Assembly (NCBI GenBank): GCA_022826945.1
Contig: JAJDTY010000042.1
Coordinates: 1 to 64,000, forward strand
Origin: Candidatus Binatia bacterium
GTDB lineage: Bacteria > Desulfobacterota > Binatia > Bin18
Reading direction: 5' to 3'
Length of the DNA stretch: 64,000 nucleotides
Positions within the stretch are counted from its first letter, which is position 1; every line of letters begins with the position of its first letter. A program made the translations under genes and the position numbers. Shown one piece after another: positions 4,509 to 62,172 of the stretch. The notes beneath the pieces were generated by a model. The model saw nothing but the letters and a program-made list of their open reading frames with translations. It made no database searches and was not told the origin of the DNA.

Positions 4509-6302
4509 TCACATCGCATCCTTGCGAATCAACCCCTTCAGGTCGTCTTCCCAGGGCGGCAGTTCGAGGCTGGCCGGGACTTCAACCAGATGGAGCCGGT
4601 GATTACCCTTGGGTCCGGTACCTTCGCTGGTATCAATGATACGAAGTTGATCCGCCAAACCATCGGCCTGAAGGCGCTCCCATTCTTCTTCCCAGAGCAG
4701 GATGAAATAGCCGGTCTTCGGAGTGGTAGGTGGGAAATAGAAGGGGATGCGCCGGTCGGCATAATACAGAGCTCCGCTGTCAAAACTCCGAAAAAAGAAG
4801 AGGGGCTGCTCCCCTACCCGCTCGACAACGCGACCCATAAAGGGCCGAAAGGTCCGTGCGGCGGCAAGAGTGGGCTGAATCACATGGTTGATGAGCAGGA
4901 AGATGCTCGTCGTGAACACCACCAGTCCGCCGAAAACGCGATCCCAGGACTGGCGGCGCAGTCCCCAGACCAACAAGACCAGGGCGCTACCGACACCTAA
5001 GAACCAGATGGCAAACGCGCCGGGATGGTCGGCAACAATACCCGTGAACATGGGCAGATTGCTCTGGTCTTTTGGATGCAGAAACGGTCGGATCAGACCC
5101 AGCGGATCAAACCCGCCGGCCTGGGCAATCACGCCGAGCATGGCCAGACCGATCACCCCGCAGCAGACAGCACCGGCGGCCTTCAGCAACGCGAGAAAAC
5201 CGGGGGGTAGATCGATCTCTCCTCGACGGAGTTCCTGCCACCAAGCTCCCAGCAGCAGGGCAATTGCCGGATAGATAGGCAGAATATATACCGTGCGCTT
5301 ACTGCTCGAAGCCGAATAGAACAGAAAAATCGCGACGATCCAGACAATCAGATAGGTAAAATTCTTCTCGGCCCAGTCCTGTCGACATTGGTATAAAAAA
5401 TAGAGTAGCGGCAGAAAGAAAAAACTCCACGGGGCCATGCCCAAAAACAGGTTGGGAATAAAATAATAGAAGGGATGGACGTGCCCGGCGCCGGCCGACC
5501 CGCTCGACACAAATCGCAGCACGTTCTCTTTCATAATCTGCTTGTCAAAAAACGCCTCACCGCCGTACCACAGGGCTAGTGCGTACCATGACCCGGCAAC
5601 GAGGAGGAATAGCAGGCCGCCCGTGACGAGATGCAGATGACGGACAAACAGCAGGTCGCGTTTGACGCACAGGAATACGCCGATAACCAGCCCCGGCAGC
5701 ACCGCGCCAATCGGTCCTTTGGCCAGGGTTGCCAGACCGAGGAGACAGAAAAAGACAAGTGCCTCAAGCCACCCCACCCGTTGCTTGCGATACATGGACC
5801 AAAAGGAAAAGAAGGCCGCGACCATAAAAAAGGTCAGCGTCATATCCACCCGGGCCGTTGTCGCAGCCCGAACCCACTCAAAGCTGGTGGCCAGGGTCAG
5901 GCCGGCAATCAGCCCGGCCTCGACACCCCACAGGACGACACCGACCCTGTAGGTCAGGAGCACCCCAATCAGAGCCAATAACGCGGAAGGGAAGCGAATC
6001 GAGAACTCGCTCAACTGACCTAAGGCGAGCGCAGCCGACGTTCCAAGCCAGTGAAAGAGCGGCGGTTTGGACGGAATGATCTGGCCGTTCCGCAAAGGCA
6101 GAACCCAGTCCCCGTTGTGATAGATCTCCCAGACAACGGTCGCCTCACGCGGTTGTCCCTTGGTGTAAAAAGGGATATCACCCAGGCCCCAGATGAATAT
6201 CAGGCCACAGAAAAGGCCGAGAAACACGCCAAAGAAGAGAACACGGGATTGCAACAGCTTTTCCTCGACAGTATGAACAGCACACACAGGGCGGCGGTTC
6301 AC
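4509..6302 (-). CDS. GT39-like membrane glycosyltransferase, downstream paralogue
   Basis: This 597-residue integral membrane protein of the ArnT/PMT fold (GT39, GT-C superfamily) would normally transfer a sugar from a polyprenyl-phosphate donor on the periplasmic side. It has a first helix near residues 22-40, then the loop FYTKGQPREA and GDWVLPLRNGQIIPSKPPLFHW, and RVDMTLTFF at the position of the second conserved aspartate. In the first loop the ArnT acidic pair (Asp-Glu of DETRYA) is replaced by G49-Q50, whereas the upstream paralogue keeps E35-E36. It overlaps the stop of that paralogue by 4 nt (ATGA), so the two are translationally coupled. Acceptor and sugar are unknown. Confidence 0.85.
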   Translation of the reverse strand: MNRRPVCAVHTVEEKLLQSRVLFFGVFLGLFCGLIFIWGLGDIPFYTKGQPREATVVWEIYHNGDWVLPLRNGQIIPSKPPLFHWLGTSAALALGQLSEFSIRFPSALLALIGVLLTYRVGVVLWGVEAGLIAGLTLATSFEWVRAATTARVDMTLTFFMVAAFFSFWSMYRKQRVGWLEALVFFCLLGLATLAKGPIGAVLPGLVIGVFLCVKRDLLFVRHLHLVTGGLLFLLVAGSWYALALWYGGEAFFDKQIMKENVLRFVSSGSAGAGHVHPFYYFIPNLFLGMAPWSFFFLPLLYFLYQCRQDWAEKNFTYLIVWIVAIFLFYSASSSKRTVYILPIYPAIALLLGAWWQELRRGEIDLPPGFLALLKAAGAVCCGVIGLAMLGVIAQAGGFDPLGLIRPFLHPKDQSNLPMFTGIVADHPGAFAIWFLGVGSALVLLVWGLRRQSWDRVFGGLVVFTTSIFLLINHVIQPTLAAARTFRPFMGRVVERVGEQPLFFFRSFDSGALYYADRRIPFYFPPTTPKTGYFILLWEEEWERLQADGLADQLRIIDTSEGTGPKGNHRLHLVEVPASLELPPWEDDLKGLIRKDAM

Positions 6303-8173
6303 GACGCAGAGTTCTCGTCTACGGTTTCATCTGATATTTCAGGCGCTGCTCGCCCCTCGGATTCGGGCGGAGCGGGTAAGACGGTTGTCCCCGTTTCCCC
6401 ATTTTGCTCAGGCTGAGTGAGCAACGCGGCAAGCACCAGACGATGTTTCTTGTCCGGTCCCTTGCCCTCACTCGTGACCAGCCGCTCAAGGTGAGGCTGG
6501 CTCTCTGAGAGCTCAGGCCAGTCCGTCTCACGGACGAGTAAATACAGCGCTGCCTCGGTCTGTGACGCGTCTCCCTGTCTGACTGCCGGGTAAGATGAGT
6601 AAATACGCTCGGCATCCGAGGGCTGTTGGAGGGCACGTTGATTCATTTCAGGAATACGGCGATCAGCGTAAAAAATGGCCCCATAGTCAGAGGCGGGGTG
6701 ATAAAAATACAGTGGCGCGTCCTGTACCATGGAACGTACGCCCAGCATAAAGGGTTTATACGTTCGCTCTTGGGCCAGGAGCGGATGGAACAAGGCGTTT
6801 GCAAAGTATAACGACGCAGAGATCGAAACTGTCAGCGCGGCAAAGACCGGTACCCAGCGGTCCCGGATCAATCCCCAGATATACCAGCCGGTTGCTCCGG
6901 CGAGCAGCGTAATCCAGATACAGATGAGAGGAAACTGACCTTGTAAACTCTGCGCAATAGTGGGCAGATTCGCCCGATCCCGAGGATGCAGGAAAGGGGA
7001 AACCAGATGATCCAGATCAAAGCCGAGGCCGTGAGTGATCAGCACAATAAGGATGAGCGCCCCAGCACTGCCCAGAGCGAGCGCGCAGCCTCGGACGATC
7101 CGTTTGATCGCGGGCGCTGATAACACTCGCGACCCTTCTATCAATTCCTGCCACCACCACCCGAGCAATAAGGCCAGAGCCGGATAGAGTGGTAGAATAT
7201 AATTACTGCGTTTCCCGGACGCCAGAGTAAAAAAGAGAAACTCAATCCCTACCCAGAGCACCAGATAGAGCTGTTTCTTCTCCCGCCATATGTCGCCTGA
7301 CCGGTAGAGCGTAAACCCAAGCGCAGGCAAGAAAAGGCTCCAGGGCAGCATCCCGACAAAGAGAGTTGGTAAATAATACAGCAGGGTGTGCTCTCGGCTC
7401 GGTCCGCCTTTCTCACTGGCGAAAAATCGAAACACATTCTCGTCCAGAATCTGGCGTTGGAAAAACTCTCCGCCGCCTTGGAAGAGGGCCAACACGTACC
7501 ATGACACGGCAATCCCGCCCGCTATCAGCAACCCTTGGCCGAGACGCAGGCGGCGGAGAAATGCGAGTTCTCTGGTCCACCACAAAAAGGTGCCCACAAC
7601 CAGGACGGGCAGCAGCAGCCCCAGCGGTCCTTTGGCCAGGACAGCAAAACCGATACTGGCATAGAAGAGGAACAGCGTCCGTCGTTGCGTTGCCCGTTCC
7701 TGGAAGGCCCAGAAAAAGAAAAACTGCGCGGCTGTCAGGAAAAACAGCAGAACCATATCGCTGCGCGCATTGATTGACCAACGTGCCCATTCCGGGCAGG
7801 TGGCCAGGATCAAAGCGGCCAGCAGCCCGACGCGCCAGTTCCAGAGCGCGCGTCCGAAGAAAAACGTAGCCAGGACTGTCGCCGTGGCAAACAGGGCGGA
7901 GGGGAAACGGACTGCCAACTCGCTCACCTGGCCGGTGAGCAAGGAGACTACAGCACCAATCCAGTGAAACAGCGGTGGCTTGAGCGGCTGTTCTACCCCG
8001 TTCCGAAGGGGAAGAATCCACCCCCCGCCGTTCACCATTTCCCAGACGATCAGGGCTTCCTTTGACTCTTCGTAATTGTAAAAAGGGATGCGACCGAGAT
8101 CTAAAAAATAGAGGAGAAAACAGAGAAAGAGGAGACCGGCAACAATCTGGCGGGTGCGCTGCGGTTCGTTCAT
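6299..8173 (-). CDS. GT39-like membrane glycosyltransferase, upstream paralogue
   Basis: A 624-residue relative of ArnT-type glycosyltransferases and first gene of a two-gene operon. The first periplasmic loop has FYNYEESKEA, with acidic residues E35-E36 where ArnT has Asp-Glu, followed by WILPLRNGVEQPLKPPLFHW. NARSDMVLLFF supplies the second conserved aspartate. Some ten further hydrophobic segments and a soluble C-terminal periplasmic tail follow. The last about 40 residues are acidic and polar and look disordered. With the downstream paralogue it may decorate lipid A, LPS core or another envelope glycan; this is inferred from the family only. Confidence 0.86.
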   Translation of the reverse strand: MNEPQRTRQIVAGLLFLCFLLYFLDLGRIPFYNYEESKEALIVWEMVNGGGWILPLRNGVEQPLKPPLFHWIGAVVSLLTGQVSELAVRFPSALFATATVLATFFFGRALWNWRVGLLAALILATCPEWARWSINARSDMVLLFFLTAAQFFFFWAFQERATQRRTLFLFYASIGFAVLAKGPLGLLLPVLVVGTFLWWTRELAFLRRLRLGQGLLIAGGIAVSWYVLALFQGGGEFFQRQILDENVFRFFASEKGGPSREHTLLYYLPTLFVGMLPWSLFLPALGFTLYRSGDIWREKKQLYLVLWVGIEFLFFTLASGKRSNYILPLYPALALLLGWWWQELIEGSRVLSAPAIKRIVRGCALALGSAGALILIVLITHGLGFDLDHLVSPFLHPRDRANLPTIAQSLQGQFPLICIWITLLAGATGWYIWGLIRDRWVPVFAALTVSISASLYFANALFHPLLAQERTYKPFMLGVRSMVQDAPLYFYHPASDYGAIFYADRRIPEMNQRALQQPSDAERIYSSYPAVRQGDASQTEAALYLLVRETDWPELSESQPHLERLVTSEGKGPDKKHRLVLAALLTQPEQNGETGTTVLPAPPESEGRAAPEISDETVDENSAS

Positions 8174-29403: not shown

Positions 29404-29817
29404 CTACTTGCCGCTCAGCGCCTGACTGAGCGCGGCGCGATAGGGATGGGTGTCCATATAGATGCGCAACACCTTGAACTTGCCGTTCTCAAACGTCCAG
29501 AAGTTCAGATTGTCCATCACCAGCGGCTTGCCGTCTGTCGTCTTGCCTTCGAGGTGGAGTGGGGCGATCAGCTTATTGCCCTCAATAATGATGTCCGTAG
29601 CCGCAGCGGTATAGTCAACGAGGCTGGTCGTCAGTTTTTCGTAGAACACGCGCAGGGCCGCCTTACCCTGAATCCCGGCGGCACCGGTAACGGGGTTGAT
29701 GAGCTTGGCATCGTCGGCGAATAGTTCGAGAATGCCATCCACATCGCCGTTCGTGACCCGTTCAAAATACGTATGAGCGGCGCTCTCCATCTGCTGTTCA
29801 GTCTGTCCGCGCGCCAT
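29404..29817 (-). CDS. NTF2-like/SnoaL-type protein
   Basis: A 137-residue single-domain protein of the NTF2-like fold (SnoaL, ketosteroid-isomerase group). The N-terminal helix with YFERVTNGDVDGILELFADDAKLINP and the later NFWTFENGKFKVLRIYMDTHPY strand are typical. These proteins include isomerases, cyclases and ligand-binding proteins, so the function is open. The strong GGAGGG ribosome site 5 nt before ATG 29817 lies inside the end of uvrA, which it overlaps by 20 nt. Confidence 0.8.
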   Translation of the reverse strand: MARGQTEQQMESAAHTYFERVTNGDVDGILELFADDAKLINPVTGAAGIQGKAALRVFYEKLTTSLVDYTAAATDIIIEGNKLIAPLHLEGKTTDGKPLVMDNLNFWTFENGKFKVLRIYMDTHPYRAALSQALSGK

Positions 29818-32800
29818 GATTCCCTCCGTTCAGATAGGCTTTCAAGCACTGTGCCGTATAGGACTGCTGGTCCTGCCGCATGAGTTGCTGCGGTGGGCCG
29901 CTGGCCACAATATTACCGCCGGCGGCACCGCCCTCGGGTCCCAGGTCGATGATGTAGTCCGCTTCTTTGAGAATGTCGAGATTGTGTTCAATCGTTACAA
30001 CCGTATTACCCTTATCAATCAGACGATGAAGCGTATGGATCAGCTTTTCAATGTCGGCAAAATGGAGGCCAGTTGTTGGCTCGTCCAAGACATAGAGCGT
30101 TTTCCCGCGCGAGCGTTTAGCCAGCTCGTAGGCCAGTTTGATGCGCTGGGCTTCGCCCCCGGACAGCGTATTGCTGGCCTGTCCAAGTTTGATATAGCCC
30201 ATGCCGATATCGTTCAGCAGCTTCAGAGGCTGGGCGATCTTCGGCACCCCAATAAAAAACGTCGCCGCCTCTTCAATGGTCATGTCCAGCACATCGGCGA
30301 TGTTCTTGCCGTTATAGGCGATTTCCAGGGTCTCCTCGTTATAGCGTCTGCCACCACACACATCACAGGTGACGTAGACATCGGGCAGGAAGCTCATCTC
30401 CATTTTAATGCGTCCCTGTCCGGTACAGGTCTCGCAGCGCCCCCCTTTCACGTTAAAAGAGAACCGACCGGGTTTATAACCACGCAGCCGCGCATCGGGC
30501 AACAGCGAAAAGAGCTTGCGCACCTCGTCCCAGAAGCCCACATAGGACGCCGGGACCGAACGCGGGGTTTTCCCGATGGGCGATTGATCGACTTCGACCA
30601 CGCGCTCGATCCCCTCAGCATTGTCGATGCTGTCATGTAGACCGACCCGTCCGGCGTACAGCCCGAGTTTGCGTCGCAGCCCGTTGACCAGAACTTCCTG
30701 GACCAAGGAACTCTTGCCCGACCCGGACACCCCTGACACGCCCACCCACGTCCCGAGTGGAATATCAATGTCAATATTCTTCAGATTATTCTCGCGTACG
30801 CCCCGCAGATGCAGCCGCGGCCGGTCCTTAAGAGACCGGACCGGACCGAGCCGCGGGTGGGCCGAGGAGAGAAACTGTCCGGTGAGGGAGTCCGTGTTCC
30901 GGCGCAACTGTTGGGGTGAGCCGATGGCGACAACCTGGCCGCCATGCACCCCGGCACCTGGCCCCAGGTCGATCACTACGTCCGCATTCTCGATGGTCTG
31001 CTCGTCGTGTTCAACGACCAGCACGGTGTTGCCGCGCTCTTGCAAATTCCGCAGGGTATCAATCAGGCGGGCATTATCGCGCGGGTGCAGCCCAATGGTC
31101 GGTTCGTCCAGGATATAACACACCCCACACAGATTGGAGCCGAGCTGGGCGGCCAGACGAATACGCTGCGCCTCTCCGCCGGACAAGGTATCCGCGCGGC
31201 GGTCCAGGGACAGATAGGACAGGCCAACCTGATTAAGAAAGCTGAGTCTGGGGACGATTTCTTTGAGGATCGGTCGTCCGACGAGCGTGTCACGCTCGGA
31301 TAGAGTCAGGTCCTGCAGATGACTGAGGCAATCTGCTGCCGACAGACGCATCAGAGCCGGTAGCGACTGGTCACAGACCTGTACGGCCCGTGCGCGTGGA
31401 TTCAGACGCTCGCCTTGACACTCGGGACAGGCAGACTCACCCAGAAACTGCGACAGCGCATAGGATGAGCCCGTATCCTCGCCGTATTCGAGCGCTTCAT
31501 TCAGGATATCGAACGTCCCCTGTAGACCCTGATCGTTCCCGGAAAAGACCAGTTGGCGCTGCTCCGCGTTCAGTTCGCCAAACGGTCGTTCAACCGGAAC
31601 CCCCAGCTTCTTGAGTCCACGCAGGAGCTTGTTCTTCGCGCGTTTTAGCTCAGAACGTGCGAGCGGCAGCAGCGCGTCTTGTTTGAGGGACTTAGTCTCA
31701 TCCGGGACGACCAGTTCAGGGTCAAACTCCCATAAGAAGCCGGCGCCGGTGCACTCCGGACAGGCTCCCTGGCGGCTGTTAAAGGAAAACAGGCGAGGGT
31801 CGGGTTCCTCAAACCCGAGGCCGCAGGCGGCACAGAAGAGATGCTCGCTATAGGTCCGCTCGTCTTCGCCGCGCACATGCACCGCACCACTCCCAACCCG
31901 GAGGGCCGATTGGAGCAAAGCCTCGGTATCGCGTCGATTGCCGTTCGCACCATTCACCCGCGTTTGGCCAATCACAATATCGATGTCGTGCTCTTTATAG
32001 CGCTGCAAACTCAGACCCGGCTCAATAGTCGCCGTACGGCCGTCGATCCGCGCCTGCTTGAAGCCCAGTTTGCGCGCCCCGGCTAAAATATCCTTGTGAA
32101 AGCCCTTCCGACCCCGTACCACCGGAGCAAAAAATGTTGTTTCCTGGTCGTGAAAATCAGTCTGAATACGGGCCAGTATTTGACTTCGGCTCTGGGCCGC
32201 CAGCGGCGCGCCGCACTGCGTACAATGCTGGACACCGATCTTGGCGTACAGCAGCCGCAAGTAGTGCGACAGCTCGGTTACGGTGGCAACGGTCGAATTC
32301 CGCCCACCCCGACTCATGCGCTGCTCAATGGCAACCGTGGGTGGAATACCGGTCAGCAGATCAACATTGGGCCGGGCGAGGACTTTAATGAATTGCCGCG
32401 AGTAGGCGGACAGGCTGTCAATATAGCGCCGTTGGCCTTCTGCGTAGACCAGATCAAACACCAGCGTCGACTTGCCTGAGCCGGACAGGCCCGTCACCAC
32501 CACCATCTGGTCACGCGGAATATCAACCGAAATATCTTGCAGGTTGTGTTCCTTGGCTCCAATAATGGCAATGGACCTGCCGCTCCCCACCTCGGCGATA
32601 AGCGGCCGGGCCGGGGTCTTCGCTTTCCGCCGTTTGGGCCGCAGGCGTCGTCCTGCGGCGCCTGAACCTAAGACTTCCTTCAGATAGCGTCCGGTATGCG
32701 AGGCCCGAACCTGGGCGACCTCCTCCGGCGTTCCCGTGGCCACAATCGTCCCGCCCCCATCTCCCCCTTCGGGCCCGAGGTCTATCAGATAGTCGGCGTA

Positions 32801-35464
32801 TTTAATGACCTCCAGGTTGTGCTCAATGATCAGGACCGAATGGCCGCATTCAACGAGTTGATCAAACGCATTGAGCAGTTTCTGTATATCGGCAAAATGC
32901 AGACCGGTTGTTGGTTCATCAAAGATGAACAGCGTGCCGTGGTCAGCGGAGTCTTTGGAGCGCTCCTTCGCAATATGCGTTGCCAGCTTCAGCCGCTGGG
33001 CCTCACCACCGGACAGCGTAGTCAGCGCCTGGCCCAGACGCATATACTCCAGCCCGACCGCGGCCAGCGAAGACAGCCGGCGCTTGAGATCCTTTTGCTC
33101 GCCAAAAAATTCCAGGGCTTCGGCAACGGTAAAATTCAAAATATCGGCCAGACTCTTGCCCTTATAGCGGACCTCCAACACCTCGTCCCGAAAACGTCTG
33201 CCCTGACACTCGGGACAGGGGACGTAGACGTCCGAGAGAAACTGCATCTCGACCTTTTCAAAGCCCTCGCCTTTGCACGACTCGCAGCGTCCGCCCTCAA
33301 CATTGAACGAGAAGGTACTCGGCGTATAACCACGGACCCGCGCCAACTCGGTTTGCGACAAGAGCCGCCGCACCGTGTCAAACGCCTTGGTGTAGGTGAG
33401 CAGGTTGGCGCGCGGCGTCGTGCCAATGGCCGACTGATCGACAAAAATAATGTCGGCCAACTGGTCGCCGCCCAGGATGGCACGACACGCACCCGGGATA
33501 CCGACCGGCTCCCCGCGCTGCTTTTTGAGGCCACGATACAGCACGTCTTCCACCAGCGTCGATTTGCCCGAGCCGGACACGCCGGTCATACACACCAGAC
33601 AGCCAAGCGGAATGGGAACATCGATATCCTGGAGATTATGCGCGCTTGCCCCTTGGACGGTCAGCCTAGATTTTTTCTTGATAGGCCGGCGTTTCTGCGG
33701 AAGCGGAATGGCCAGCCGTCCAGACAGGTATTGACCGGTCAACGACTGCTTGTCTTTGAGCAGCTTGGCATACGGCCCGTTGAATACGATCTCACCGCCT
33801 TTTTCACCGGCCAGGGGTCCCAGGTCGATGACATTATCGGTCTCGCGAATAATCTCCGGATCGTGCTCGACCACAACGACAGTATTCCCGTTGTCGCGCA
33901 GGTCTTGCAGAATACGAACCAGACGCTGGCTATCGCGCGGATGCAACCCGATTGACGGTTCGTCCAGGATATAGAGGGTGTTGACCAGAGCGGAACCAAT
34001 CGCCGTAGTAAGATCCACGCGTTCCAGCTCACCGCCGGACAGGGTGCGGGATTGCCGGTCCAGGGTCAGGTATTCCACGCCGACCTCAACCAGATAGCGC
34101 AGGCGTTTCCGAATCTCATCCAGCATGAGTTGGGCGACCTGCTCCTGGTAGGCGGTCAGCTTGAGGGCGGCAAAGAATCCCGCGCACGCCCCGATGCTCA
34201 TCAGGTTGATGTCGGCCAGGGTTTTGCCCCCAACCCGATACAGCAAGCTCTCCGGTTTGAGGCGCGCGCCCTGACAGTCTTCGCACGGGAAGTAGCCCCG
34301 GTAGCGGGCCAGAAAAACGCGCACATGCATTTTATACGTTTTGGTTTCCAGCCACTTGAACCAGCCCCGGACGCCGTAGTAGTCATCATCGCCTTCCATG
34401 ATGGCCTGCTGTTGCTCCTGGCTGAGCGCCTGCCAGGCCACATCGGTCGGGATGTCATGTTGCTCACAAAAGGAAAACAGCTCGCGCCGCTCCCACTGTG
34501 CCGCCTTGATCCGCCAGGGCTTAATAGCTCCCAGTTTCAGCGTCAGGGTCGGATCGGGGACGATCAGCTCCGGATCAATATCGATCGTGCGGCCAAACCC
34601 ACGGCAGGTATCACACGCGCCGAGCGGGCTATTGAACGAGAACATGTTCGGCACGGGCTCTTGATAGGCGATACCACACGCCGCGCACTCAAGCTGGTCC
34701 GAGAACGGCACAGCGGCATTGTCCTCGTCGGGAAAAATCAGCGTCAGGCGGCCCTTGCCATACTGAAAGGCTTGTTCGCATGAATCGTGGATACGCTTTT
34801 TGGAACGAGTGGTTAGGGTCAGACGATCAACCAGAACGGTGCAGGTTTCCGGCTCCGTCTCGGGTCGGTCTGCCAATTCCTGAATATCGACCGGCTTACC
34901 AGCCACAACGATCCGATGGAAACCGGACTGCAACAGACCATTGCGGACTTCTTCCCAGGGCAGGCTGGCCGGCGTTGACACGCTGAACGTGACGAGAAAG
35001 CGGCAGCCGTCCGGCTTTTCTCTGCGTAGCTTTTTATACACCGATTCGGCCGAATCGCGCTCCACCGGCTGGCCGCATTCCCGGCAGTACAAGCTGCCTA
35101 TTTTGGCAAACAGAAGCTTGAGGTGATCATGCAGCTCGGTCATGGTCCCGACGGTTGAACGCGAGGTTCGCACCGGCCGGTTCTGGTCAATGGCAATGGC
35201 CGGCAGAATACCGTCAATACGCTCGACCTGGGGCTTGTCCATCCGGTCGAGAAACTGCCGCGCATAGGCCGAGAAGCTCTCAACGTAGCGACGCTGGCCC
35301 TCGGCGTACAAGATATCGAAAGCCAGACTCGACTTGCCCGACCCACTGACTCCGGTCACCACCGTCAGTTGGTGCAGGGGAATCTGCACATCGATGTTTT
35401 TGAGATTGTTCTGGCGCGCACCAGTTACCCGAATCGAGCCACCACCCGTCCCGTTGGTTTCCAA
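29798..35464 (-). CDS. uvrA: Double-length UvrA (two UvrA units fused)
   Basis: UvrA finds bulky DNA lesions and loads UvrB in excision repair; it normally works as a dimer of about 940 residues. This chain is 1888 residues and holds two complete, diverged UvrA units (about 1-945 and 958-1888). It has four Walker A motifs of GxSGSGKS type (first K44), four LSGGE signatures, four DEPxxGLH Walker B regions and the CxxC zinc modules of both halves ([31 protein letters not shown]). TTG 35464 is the likely start, with GGAGGG 5 nt upstream. The fused form is known in some bacteria. No uvrB or uvrC is nearby. Confidence 0.95.
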
Positions 35465-58090: not shown

Positions 58091-59284
58091 CTAGTGCAGC
58101 GGCTTCTCGCCAACGAGGACGAGGACACCGGAATACTGGTGGACGATAGCCTGGCGCTGCACAGGGGCGATCTCGCAGCCGGTAAAAAACCCGATAACCG
58201 GCACATCGGCCAGGTATTGGTTGATGTAGGAAGAGTCAATATCGGGAATCCCGTAGAGTCCGCTTCCACGTCCGACACAGTTGAAGTACAGACCGAACGC
58301 CGGACGGCCGTGTTGCCAGCTCTGGTCCTGCGCTTCCAGCTCTCGTTTCAGGTCGGTCCGCGCGCCGTTCCCGTCACGTAAGGTGAAGACCAGATTCTGG
58401 CCTTCGACGATCTGGTCCGCCACCGCAATAATCCCGCGCTCCGGATCAAAGCCCACGAGATTCCGCACGACGTATTCGCCGGGGGCAATATGCTGGCGTT
58501 CGGCGTCGACCGGCAGGCCAACGAAGATATAGGCTGCGGCACGACGCAGATCCTCGCGAAGTTGGGGACTCACACGTTCGGCAAAGACCTCAAACGCCGG
58601 CCTGCCGTCAAGCTCAAGGATGAGATTGTTATGGGCTTTCGTCACCCGATGCACGGGACTCACCGGTTGGCAGGCCTGGGTGATGCCAATGGTATAGGTG
58701 AACTGACCGCTCAGCAGCGCCCCACTGACTGCATCACTGCTGACCGTGTCTCCACACAACTGGAAGGTCTCGCCAACACTCCCGTCCTCAGAAGCCCCGC
58801 CACCAACAAAAGGCACGTCCGAGAGCCCGCCTTCTGCAATTCCGTCAAAAAACGCATGGGAGTCAAAATTATACGTATCGGGGAAGACAAGGGCGAGATT
58901 GTCGGGACCGAGGTGAGGGGTGACGCTGGACACGACCTCCTGGCCAACCGTACGTGCCCGACCGCGTAGTTGGGGAACAAAGAAACGATGGGCGGAGAGC
59001 GTGTCCGACCGCACAGCTAACACCGCAACACCCGGCGCGCGTTCCACTTCTCCAGCCGTGGTCAGCACGCCACCGGCACTACAGCCGACAACCTGACTGG
59101 CTTGCGTTTCAGTGCGAACCGTGCGCAGGACGCGCCCGTACCCGGCCCCGTGGTGCGCAGTGGCAAAGACCAGGGCAAAGTCAGCGCGGTCGCCACCTGC
59201 CTGACGCAAGGCCGCCTGGGACGCTTCCTGGGTGGCCTGTTCGGTGTCGTGTTGTTTTGAGAGACCCACTCCAGCGCTGAGCAT
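58091..59284 (-). CDS. FIST-domain sensor protein
   Basis: A 397-residue protein made of FIST_N and FIST_C domains, thought to bind small ligands, possibly amino acids. VVGCSAGGVLT near residue 85 and the C-terminal GIPDIDSSYINQYLADVPVIGFFTGCEIAPV are typical. No kinase, GGDEF or methyl-acceptor output domain is fused, so it may act as a separate sensor subunit. It follows the unknown gene at 59305-59988 with a 20-nt gap. Confidence 0.88.
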   Translation of the reverse strand: MLSAGVGLSKQHDTEQATQEASQAALRQAGGDRADFALVFATAHHGAGYGRVLRTVRTETQASQVVGCSAGGVLTTAGEVERAPGVAVLAVRSDTLSAHRFFVPQLRGRARTVGQEVVSSVTPHLGPDNLALVFPDTYNFDSHAFFDGIAEGGLSDVPFVGGGASEDGSVGETFQLCGDTVSSDAVSGALLSGQFTYTIGITQACQPVSPVHRVTKAHNNLILELDGRPAFEVFAERVSPQLREDLRRAAAYIFVGLPVDAERQHIAPGEYVVRNLVGFDPERGIIAVADQIVEGQNLVFTLRDGNGARTDLKRELEAQDQSWQHGRPAFGLYFNCVGRGSGLYGIPDIDSSYINQYLADVPVIGFFTGCEIAPVQRQAIVHQYSGVLVLVGEKPLH

Positions 59285-59304: not shown

Positions 59305-59988
59305 CTAGTCCGGCTTCTTAAGGCCGAGCCGTTCGTAATATTTCTCCGGAACTTTGTCTGGATCTTTATAAATAATAAAAGAACAGTGCTCTTTTCCGAG
59401 GACAGCGGCCGGCTCGACCACAACAAAAGGTTTCCCGTTTTTTTCGATGTCAACCAACTCCATGGGCGGCTCGTGTGCACAGTACACGGGAAAGTCGGCA
59501 CGGTTATAGGTCATCCGCTGCGGTTTTTCCACGGTATGAAAGGCGTCGGGTCCGTCGTATTTGCCTTCGAGAACCATGCGTCCGCCACTGCCGCAGGGAC
59601 GCATCTGAATAACGACCTTTTCCTCATCCTCTTCAATATGCATGGGTTGGAGATGGCCTCGCAAACCGGCAACAAACATTTTGATCTTCCGGGGCAGTTC
59701 TTGGGGATCCTGCGGCATCTTTTCCAAATTCGGCAGCCACCAGGCTTTCACACCGGCCATCATGATCTCTTCCAGCACTTCATCGCCAAAGCGTTTTCCC
59801 ACCTCACTCAGTGTCGCGGTTGTCCAGTTCCGGTATAGGTCGTGCATCCCGAGGAATTCATTATACATGCGATGCGCGATCTTCTTGGCTTGCTCTGCAT
59901 CTCCGGCGTCAATGGCTTCCGTTAAACGGTCCACCGTTCGCTTTCCCATCTCACGGACTTCTTCTTCGGAAAAAAGGCGTTCACTCAT
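59305..59988 (-). CDS. Conserved-looking protein of unknown function (227 aa)
   Basis: I do not recognise this gene with confidence. The 227-residue soluble protein has a helical first half and a conserved-looking MRPCGSGGRM motif near residue 128, then HEPPMELVDIEKNGKPFVVV. The Cys-containing PCGSGGR loop and nearby His could form a ligand or metal site. ATG 59988 with GGAGGGG upstream is clear; the open frame to 60135 lacks a ribosome site. It appears to form an operon with the FIST gene. Confidence 0.65.
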   Translation of the reverse strand: MSERLFSEEEVREMGKRTVDRLTEAIDAGDAEQAKKIAHRMYNEFLGMHDLYRNWTTATLSEVGKRFGDEVLEEIMMAGVKAWWLPNLEKMPQDPQELPRKIKMFVAGLRGHLQPMHIEEDEEKVVIQMRPCGSGGRMVLEGKYDGPDAFHTVEKPQRMTYNRADFPVYCAHEPPMELVDIEKNGKPFVVVEPAAVLGKEHCSFIIYKDPDKVPEKYYERLGLKKPD

Positions 59989-60023
59989 ACGATCCCCTCC
60001 TATCGTGACTCGGCCTGTTCCGG

Positions 60024-60053
60024 GATATATCCCAATCATCCACTCCATTGCAA
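60024..60053 (-). promoter_or_regulatory. Candidate promoter of the PCGSGGR-protein/FIST operon
   Basis: On the minus strand TTGCAA, an 18-nt spacer and TATATC precede ATG 59988 by 36 nt. Moderate match to sigma70. Confidence 0.4.
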
Positions 60054-60111
60054 AGCCCCGAGAGCCTGGATACCGTACCGCTGACAATAGGCTGAAAGGA
60101 ACGGACTGATT

Positions 60112-62172
60112 GTGGCTCGCGGAGGTGGGGGGCAAAGACGATTATTTGCGCGTACGGCCGACGTCAAGCTGTCGCCGATTAAGGCGATGGAACTGGCTGC
60201 CAGTCGGGTGCCGGACGTGGTCTCTCTGGCCCAAGGCATCCCCAGCTTTGATACGCCCGAACCGATCAAATCTTTTGTCCAACAAAAAATCGCCGAGGGC
60301 GAGTGCGCCACCTACTCGCTGACCCCAGGCTTACCCCAGTTGCGCGAATGCATTGCCGAGTCGTTGCTGCAAGAAGGCATGCACTACGACCCGGACCAGG
60401 AGATTATTGTTTCCAGCGGCTCGATTGAGGCCATTGCCGCGACGCTACTGACCCTTACCCGTCCTGGAGATGAGATCATTCTGCCCTCTCCCAGCTATGC
60501 CTCCTACCAGGAGGTCGTTCGCATCGCCGGCTGTACCCCGCGCTTCGCCCCGCTCCGCGAGGAGCAGAATTTTGCCTTTGACGAAGAGACGTTCGAGGCC
60601 TGTCTGTCGCCACACACGAGAGCGATCTTGTACTGTAACCCGAACAATCCGACCGGGACGGTCTTCTCAGGAGCGGAAACGCGCGCCCTGATTACGCTGG
60701 CCGAACGGCATAATCTCTTTCTTATTATTGATGAGGCATATAAGGATTTTGTGTATACACCAGAAGCCTATTTCAGCCCGGCTCAGGTCGCCGATGTCCG
60801 GCACCGCATTGTACGGATTTTCACCTTCTCCAAAGCCTATGGGATGACGGGCTGGCGGGTCGGCTACCTCCATTCCGATGCCCGGAACGTCCAGGAAATC
60901 CTCAAAGTGCACGACGCCTTGGTGACTTGCGCACCGGTTGTCTCACAATATGCCGCCTTAGCCGCGCTCGAATACGGACAGGACCATATCATTTCCTTCC
61001 GACAGGCGTTTAAGCAGCGCCGCGACCTGATACTCACGCATCTCGATCAACTCTCCCATGTGTTTGACTACCAGAAACCCGAAGGTGCCTACTTTGTCTT
61101 TCCCCGGATGAAAGACGTGGTTGTCCACGCCCGCGACTCGCATGCCCTCGCCTACGACCTGCTGGAAAAGGCAAAAGTTGCCGTTGTCCCTGGCATTGCC
61201 TTTGGACCCAGCGGCGAGGCCCATATCCGACTGAACTTCGGACGCAGGCCGGACGATATTACCGCCGCCTTCGAGCGTCTCAGCGCGTACTTCAGTCCGG
61301 CAGTTGTGCATCGAGTTCGCCCTGATCAGCTCCACGCAAGCCGACCGACGGTCTCGGCGGCAGAGCATAGCCCGCTGCCTACCACCCCACGTCTTTCGCG
61401 TGACCTTTTTTTCTACCAGCGTCTGCGTGGCTTCGCCGTCCTGATATTGCGAACACTTGCCCACCTGAGACTCTGGCGAAAAAATCCTCGCGTTATTGCT
61501 ATCGCCGGCAGCCACGGTAAGACCGTTATCAAGCGCATTGTGACCGAGCTCTTAGCCCGGCAGTACCGGGTTCAGCCCAATCTCCGCTCCTACAATACCG
61601 ATATTGGCCTGCCCCTTGCCATCCTCAATATTGAATTGGCTTCAGCCCGTCTACGAGACCTCGCGCGTGGCTTCGTCCGGGCGGTCTGGACCGCGCTCTT
61701 CAATACCGAGGCGCCCGACATCCTCGTGCTCGAATTCGGCGTCCGTCACGGGGGCGATATGCAGCAATTGATCAGAACGGTGATCCCCGACATTGCCATC
61801 CTGACCACCCTGACGCCGAGTTATAGTACCGATGTCGAGGAGTTACACACGCTCCAGGATGAAATGCGAGCGTTATGCCACGCGGCCGGAGCCAACTGTC
61901 AGTTTGTGATCGATGGGGATGATCCTCTGCTCCAGGATGTCATCGCGTCCTTACCCACACCGCCGCTGCTCCTGCATCGTTCTGCCTGGAGAGCAGAAGA
62001 GAGCGGCCTTCAACTCCAGAGCCCCGTCCGGTGTTATCCGGTGACACGGGAAATCATTGGTGAGAATGAGCGTTTTTCGGTCCAGGCGGCCGTAGCCGTG
62101 GCCGAGCGCTGGACCAATCTGTCCCCCGCCGAGATTCAGCGTTTTCTCAGTGAAAACACAGCCGTGCACTAA
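60112..62172 (+). CDS. PLP aminotransferase fused to a Mur ligase-like domain
   Basis: A 686-residue two-part protein. Residues about 15-400 are a class I/II aminotransferase: NPNNPTG, IIDEAYKDF, and PLP-binding K241 in FTFSKAYGMTGWRVGY, with the C-terminal Arg region HIRLNFGRR. Residues about 450-686 match the central ATPase domain of MurF-type ligases: P-loop G466-SHGK470-T, YNTDIGLPLAILN, and EFGVRHGGD (E541). The UDP-substrate N-domain and the C-terminal Mur domain are missing. The frame is unbroken across the join (about 400-450), so this is one gene. GTG 60112 with AAAGGA upstream. The function is unknown; coupling of an amino donor to an amide-forming step is a guess. Confidence 0.85.
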   Translation: MARGGGGQRRLFARTADVKLSPIKAMELAASRVPDVVSLAQGIPSFDTPEPIKSFVQQKIAEGECATYSLTPGLPQLRECIAESLLQEGMHYDPDQEIIVSSGSIEAIAATLLTLTRPGDEIILPSPSYASYQEVVRIAGCTPRFAPLREEQNFAFDEETFEACLSPHTRAILYCNPNNPTGTVFSGAETRALITLAERHNLFLIIDEAYKDFVYTPEAYFSPAQVADVRHRIVRIFTFSKAYGMTGWRVGYLHSDARNVQEILKVHDALVTCAPVVSQYAALAALEYGQDHIISFRQAFKQRRDLILTHLDQLSHVFDYQKPEGAYFVFPRMKDVVVHARDSHALAYDLLEKAKVAVVPGIAFGPSGEAHIRLNFGRRPDDITAAFERLSAYFSPAVVHRVRPDQLHASRPTVSAAEHSPLPTTPRLSRDLFFYQRLRGFAVLILRTLAHLRLWRKNPRVIAIAGSHGKTVIKRIVTELLARQYRVQPNLRSYNTDIGLPLAILNIELASARLRDLARGFVRAVWTALFNTEAPDILVLEFGVRHGGDMQQLIRTVIPDIAILTTLTPSYSTDVEELHTLQDEMRALCHAAGANCQFVIDGDDPLLQDVIASLPTPPLLLHRSAWRAEESGLQLQSPVRCYPVTREIIGENERFSVQAAVAVAERWTNLSPAEIQRFLSENTAVH

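Follow-up and report, generated by a model that had tools for sequence, protein, structure and literature searches.

A conserved protein family joining an aminotransferase to a MurF-type central domain in Binatia, and its possible role in D-alanine supply

Ordinary peptidoglycan requires D-alanine, for which alanine racemase (Alr) is the textbook source. A MurF module and a PLP enzyme are already combined in one chain in the bifunctional MurF/alanine racemase (NF008897, PRK11930), carried, as we take it, by Bacteroidetes; that protein pairs a complete MurF with Alr, whereas the fusion analysed here pairs a MurF relic with an aminotransferase. Further wall-enzyme fusions, MurB/MurC and MurC/Ddl, are described in PMC4803751. 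Non-Alr PLP enzymes can also supply D-alanine for peptidoglycan: PMC5814848 gives E. coli MetC and Chlamydia pneumoniae GlyA as alternative alanine racemases. These belong to other PLP families than the present aminotransferase, and that source describes neither of them as a Mur fusion. MurF itself has N- and C-terminal domains, a metal-binding His and a carbamylated Lys, all four of which are missing from the Mur part described below, and the nearest known relative of that part is MurF of the Patescibacteria type, in which the reading frame starts only shortly ahead of the central domain. MurT differs in having no aminotransferase joined to it, and so does the MurE-like subunit of plastid RNA polymerase. 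GntC, PRK07683 and the Thermus/Pyrococcus AspAT share fold, catalytic residues and a full-length match with the aminotransferase half, but GntC and other class I/II aminotransferases are families without a Mur domain. Wall-enzyme fusions are thus already known, and the pairing of an aminotransferase with a reduced Mur domain is new within the open-licence PubMed Central literature searched, where no description of it was found, in keeping with the original prediction, which knew of no described family of this architecture.

The window, a stretch of 64,000 nucleotides from a Candidatus Binatia bacterium (contig JAJDTY010000042.1 of GCA_022826945.1), contains a 686-codon frame in which a complete aminotransferase of class I/II (AT) is followed by the central domain of a Mur ligase, here termed mini-Mur (Table 1). 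Pfam confirmed this reading of a single frame, matching PF00155 (Aminotran_1_2) at residues 35–390, over profile positions 2–361 of 361 (3.9e-67), and PF08245 (Mur_ligase_M) at residues 464–613 (2.4e-7; 31.3 bits, above the cut-off of 24). At E ≤ 0.001 it gave no match to a Mur family of the N- or C-terminal domain, which agrees with the predicted loss of both the UDP-substrate and the C-terminal domains. The residues named in that prediction (K241, the P-loop G466–T471 and E541) were also correct: K241, G466, G469, T471 and E541 do not vary in an alignment of 16 fused proteins, and K470 hardly does. A structure model of the whole fusion, built with 16 sequences, was poor (mean pLDDT 63.1, pTM 0.48); in a Foldseek search with it, the best 50 of 1702 matches were all PLP-enzyme chains, assigned by title except for one integrative GpsB-DapX model, assigned by its position among the listed matches.

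Table 1. Positions in the window of the fusion gene, its two halves and the residues discussed in the text.
Feature	Position	Strand	Basis
Whole fusion gene, 686 aa, GTG start, stop included	60112..62172	+	open frame, Pfam, relatives
Aminotransferase half, residues 1-393	60112..61290	+	PF00155 Aminotran_1_2 at 35-390
K241, PLP lysine	60832..60834	+	invariant, 16 sequences
Variable linker, about residues 394-433	61291..61410	+	weak conservation, varying length in alignment; pLDDT < 50 at 397-433
Mini-Mur half, residues 434-686, MurF-type central domain only	61411..62169	+	
P-loop GSHGKT, residues 466-471	61507..61524	+	GxxGK[ST] intact in 12/20 mini-Murs
SYNT motif, residues 493-496, MurF Y/N-N-N counterpart	61588..61599	+	invariant in 16 fused proteins; first N in 20/20 mini-Murs
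E541, counterpart of MurF LELG/LEMG glutamate	61732..61734	+	present in 20/20 mini-Murs
Y571 replacing MurF metal-binding His	61822..61824	+	His lost 20/20 mini-Murs, kept 7/7 MurFs
M585 replacing MurF carbamylated Lys	61864..61866	+	Lys lost 20/20 mini-Murs, kept 7/7 MurFs

A conserved AT–mini-Mur protein family exists. The Mur half was matched strongly (E ≤ 1.3e-34) in 18 of 58 Binatia-class genomes, that of the window included, and these yielded 16 full-length fused frames (again counting the window) of 669–1129 aa without internal stops, together with two fragments truncated at contig ends. A search with the AT half at E ≤ 1e-75 hit 19 of the 58 genomes: all 18 just mentioned, plus G008, whose contig breaks off within the AT; in this sample, therefore, no complete AT of this subfamily was seen without its Mur half. 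Orthologues with the same join, a check named in the original prediction, were found in the Binatia class, and the fused form is present in SAR324 genomes too. A public scan with the Mur half returned 24 loci: 15 with a full fused frame, two cut by a contig end, L064 with an interrupted frame, L068 with a truncated one and five with the halves split. Several of them come from genomes already among those sampled; the taxa were Candidatus Binatia/Binatota, SAR324 and Lambdaproteobacteria, with the split cases in Moraniibacteriota, Uhrbacteria and a Parcubacteria-group bacterium. A plasmid search with the fusion protein gave 2310 matching records, none of which spanned 80% of the protein. In the truncated locus, in a record titled Bacillota bacterium HOT.CON.150 (L068:2-2680), the AT and an initial portion of the mini-Mur continue in frame into a complete FAD-dependent oxidoreductase domain (PF01266, DAO), a family with D-amino-acid oxidases among its members; the contig ends before the frame does.

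The two halves also occur as separate genes, which the original prediction had held to count against it. In a sample of 286 genomes from the phylum to which the Uhrbacteria genome G060 belongs, assumed to be Patescibacteria, short mini-Mur frames of 221–255 aa were found in at least five (G060, G080, G106, G138 and G312), and four further genomes from the public scan bring the split form to nine. In all nine an AT gene lies directly upstream of the mini-Mur on the same strand, with spacing from a 17 bp overlap to a 9 bp gap (reckoned for L072 from the ATG at 5992), although in L117 the AT gene is broken by stop codons and in L073 the mini-Mur includes a masked run of 10 X. As the halves are directly adjacent and co-directional, their separation supports a partnership and does not refute it; that the pair occurs as adjoining genes in one phylum-level group and as a single gene in two others is strong evidence for joint function. 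An ftsQ-like gene comes next in five of the nine loci, called by Pfam POTRA/FtsQ matches in L069, L074 and L075 and by blastp in L116 and L072, while two D-Ala-D-Ala ligase (ddl) genes follow the mini-Mur in L073, an HD-domain gene follows it in L117, and the next gene is convergent in L118 and L119. In another genome, G114, a sister AT of 50% identity, without a mini-Mur at that place, overlaps by 4 bp a ddl gene scoring 291.5 bits (cut-off 243), and no Alr match was found there. Three genomes with AT matches at E ≤ 1e-60 but only 37–42% identity (G072, G123 and G165) were left out of the AT-positive Patescibacteria set as more distant; all three have Alr, and the ATs of G123 and G165 look to sit among likely histidine-biosynthesis genes.

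The cell-wall genes of the window genome frame the question of what such a pair might do. A cluster holds murE, mraY, murD, ftsW, murG, murC, ddl, ftsQ, ftsA and ftsZ; Ddl scores 343 bits (cut-off 243), a MurF match above cut-off lies elsewhere in the genome, and MurI is also present. Since it encodes Ddl and MurF, this genome is predicted to need D-Ala-D-Ala, and a search of it for PF00842 (Ala_racemase_C) returned no match. As a detail of gene order, mraY stands directly after murE (L135:7335-9973), and murF is on contig C67, outside the division and cell-wall cluster.

Across the 58 Binatia-class genomes, Alr (PF00842) was found in 4/19 AT carriers and 37/39 non-carriers (Fisher p 1.5e-8, counting genomes), and among those at least 95% complete in 2/9 carriers against 30/31 non-carriers. 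G001 and G006, each a near-complete genome in one contig, gave no Alr match, nor did G021 (98% complete, six contigs). Incompleteness does not explain the absence, because MurI, which served as a control, is not similarly depleted (13/19 carriers against 32/39 non-carriers, p 0.32); G014 and G015, which are Alr-positive, gave no MurI match. In the phylum of a SAR324 genome Alr is present in one of five carriers and 39 of 47 non-carriers (p 0.008), and in the Patescibacteria sample in 1/6 AT genomes against 93/280, which is not significant (p 0.67). The correlation is partly phylogenetic: a single family, with 16 of the 58 genomes, dominates the Binatia signal, and collapsing to families leaves Alr in two of five against nine of ten (p 0.08). 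Of the possible D-alanine sources, the survey covered Alr. As most carriers were found without Alr, the AT family may be a supplier of D-alanine.

We therefore favour, with a probability of roughly 0.4, a reading in which the AT would supply D-alanine in place of Alr and the MurF relic would serve as a docking or control domain. The AT half, a fold-type I PLP enzyme, could form D-alanine either by alanine racemisation or by stereo-inverting transamination of pyruvate, its product replacing that of Alr. The mini-Mur, its ligase chemistry lost, might bind, for example, the MurF substrate, MurF/Ddl or a division complex, so that D-alanine would reach the site at which Ddl and MurF consume it; the reaction, its stereochemistry and the docking role are what we infer. 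This reading draws support from the company the AT keeps, with a MurF relic as partner, ddl and ftsQ neighbours in the split form, and an Alr that is usually gone. The partner descends from MurF, whose substrate is D-Ala-D-Ala; NF008897 couples MurF to an ordinary racemase; and MetC and GlyA show that PLP enzymes other than Alr have been reported to racemise alanine. In its broader form, which we hold only tentatively, the proposal is that in Binatia, and in part of SAR324 and Patescibacteria, the place of the missing alanine racemase may be taken by an undescribed AT family, which fusion or translational coupling ties to a MurF domain no longer acting as a ligase and used for targeting. If so, uncultured groups that seem unable to make D-alanine would do so through an enzyme whose annotation says no more than aminotransferase, the metabolism reconstructed for Binatia, SAR324 and Patescibacteria would need correction, and a Mur ligase would have been turned into a non-catalytic partner or targeting subunit. 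The bivalve-type aspartate racemase was considered as a precedent and dropped, as it belongs to fold type II according to PMC6424897.

Several observations weaken the D-alanine proposal. AT and Alr occur together in 4/19 Binatia-class carriers (G014, G015, G040 and G047), in 1/5 SAR324 carriers and in G060, while G013 and G036 have neither Alr nor an AT of the fusion type; the family-level p of 0.08 and the non-significant Patescibacteria result count against it too. By every sequence test made, moreover, the AT half comes out as an aminotransferase, and its sequence alone gives no racemase assignment. The features of class I/II aminotransferases are present, with a full-length PF00155 match and with K241, N179, D207 and R373 invariant, which we take to be the PLP Lys, the Asn of NPTG, the Asp and the carboxylate-binding Arg, respectively; 31 active-site columns (N178–G182, D207, Y210, S240–K241, R249 and R373 among them) are invariant in 16 relatives, possible exceptions aside. 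The Alr domains PF00842 and PF01168 are absent among the Pfam families of the fusion protein at E ≤ 0.001. The nearest models are GntC and generic aminotransferases, and none of the NCBIfam models listed is matched by the AT half above its cut-off.

These results bring in the chief rival, which we regard as possible though doubtful: the AT may be an ordinary L-amino-acid aminotransferase for wall supply (of L-Ala, L-Glu or a diaminopimelate intermediate), with the mini-Mur again docking, the loss of Alr a coincidence of ancestry and D-alanine made by another enzyme. The second-best NCBIfam models of the AT half, PRK07683 (aminotransferase A) and PRK07682, fit such a role, as do its PDB relatives by sequence (aromatic, aspartate and prephenate aminotransferases) and the scores of LL-diaminopimelate aminotransferase models, TIGR03540 reaching 188.3 against a cut-off of 593.25; the family-level link with Alr loss, at only p 0.08, favours it as well. 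Against this rival stand the recurrence of the Alr association in a second phylum-level group, SAR324, and the sister AT that overlaps ddl in G114.

It is improbable that the AT is instead a cyclising PLP enzyme of the GntC/capreomycidine-synthase type working in a secondary-metabolite pathway. Among the NCBIfam models GntC (NF041364) scores best on the window AT (312.2 bits for the whole protein, 314.5 for the AT half) and on several relatives, but these scores lie under the 415-bit cut-off, for which reason a secondary-metabolite role was rejected as first choice, and the ATs of L116 and L069 prefer other models. No biosynthetic cluster was recognised among the annotated neighbouring genes, and Patescibacteria genomes of about 1 Mb would be unlikely hosts for such a pathway.

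Less probable still is a bifunctional synthetase, in which the AT would make an amino acid that the Mur part activates or ligates with ATP, as the original prediction had suggested. The window half has the central-domain fold of MurF and keeps the P-loop and the Mg-binding Glu, and the P-loop is intact in 10 of 11 fused relatives. Against this, the catalytic His and carbamylated Lys are lost in all 20 mini-Murs compared with seven MurFs (the window genome's own MurF, L077, being left out), and the frame stops where the central domain ends, so that the C-terminal, amino-acid domain is absent; the P-loop is broken in 8/20, with the Lys itself replaced in G021, G106 and G138. ATP ligase activity was rejected on the loss of His and Lys, and these losses, with a P-loop intact in only 12/20, make the mini-Mur probably not a ligase. 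The alternative put forward with it, an ATP-driven regulatory module, fares better in part: an accessory module is favoured, but ATP-driven regulation is doubtful where the P-loop is broken.

The descent of the mini-Mur can be traced in some detail. On the window protein TIGR01143 (MurF) scores 78.4 bits against a cut-off of 288.6, and NF008897 scores 53 bits on the Mur half against a cut-off of 804. In a FastTree phylogeny of 20 mini-Murs and 34 MurFs all mini-Murs fall in a single clade (support 0.961) within the Patescibacteria MurFs (enclosing nodes 0.846–0.933), and the mini-Mur appears closest to, and descended from, a MurF of that type. The MurF-like genes of the sampled Patescibacteria (L080–L084 and relatives) start just before the central domain and seem to lack the N-terminal UDP-substrate domain. 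A separate MurF-like gene is retained elsewhere by the genomes examined for it, with a TIGR01143 match in 9/9, over cut-off in five. In an AT tree of 38 tips the fused Binatia and SAR324 ATs form a clade (support 1.0), joined by the split Patescibacteria ATs at 0.968 and then by the ddl-adjacent AT at 0.896; the split ATs are united as a clade of their own at only 0.233. The simplest story would have the AT first associated with ddl, then coupled to the MurF relic in Patescibacteria, transferred to other phyla and fused. That the fusion is an assembly or annotation artefact, such as a frameshift or chimeric join at 61300–61450 as the original prediction had cautioned, is as good as excluded, because the same join stands in 16 full-length frames from separate assemblies, in the single-contig genomes G001 and G006 among others, and in SAR324.

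Around the fusion gene no cell-wall neighbours could be named with confidence in the Binatia loci, a further point against the D-alanine proposal. A gene for a FIST-domain protein (58091–59284, minus strand) and one at 59305–60135 (minus strand), divergent from the fusion and with a weak, sub-cut-off B12-binding_2 match, stay beside it in 12 loci of the window's family. In some Binatia loci (L062:2552-3913, L071:1870-4043) genes for a FAD_binding_4 oxidase and a short-chain dehydrogenase lie upstream of the fusion, and, as a guess, they may resemble the DprE1/DprE2 pair. Elsewhere in the window, overlapping tandem genes for PMT_2-type glycosyltransferases occupy 4509–6302 and 6299–8173 (minus strand), and a frame of 1888 codons at 29798–35464 (minus strand) encodes a tandem double UvrA, in which UvrA_inter and UvrA_DNA-bind are each matched in two stretches.
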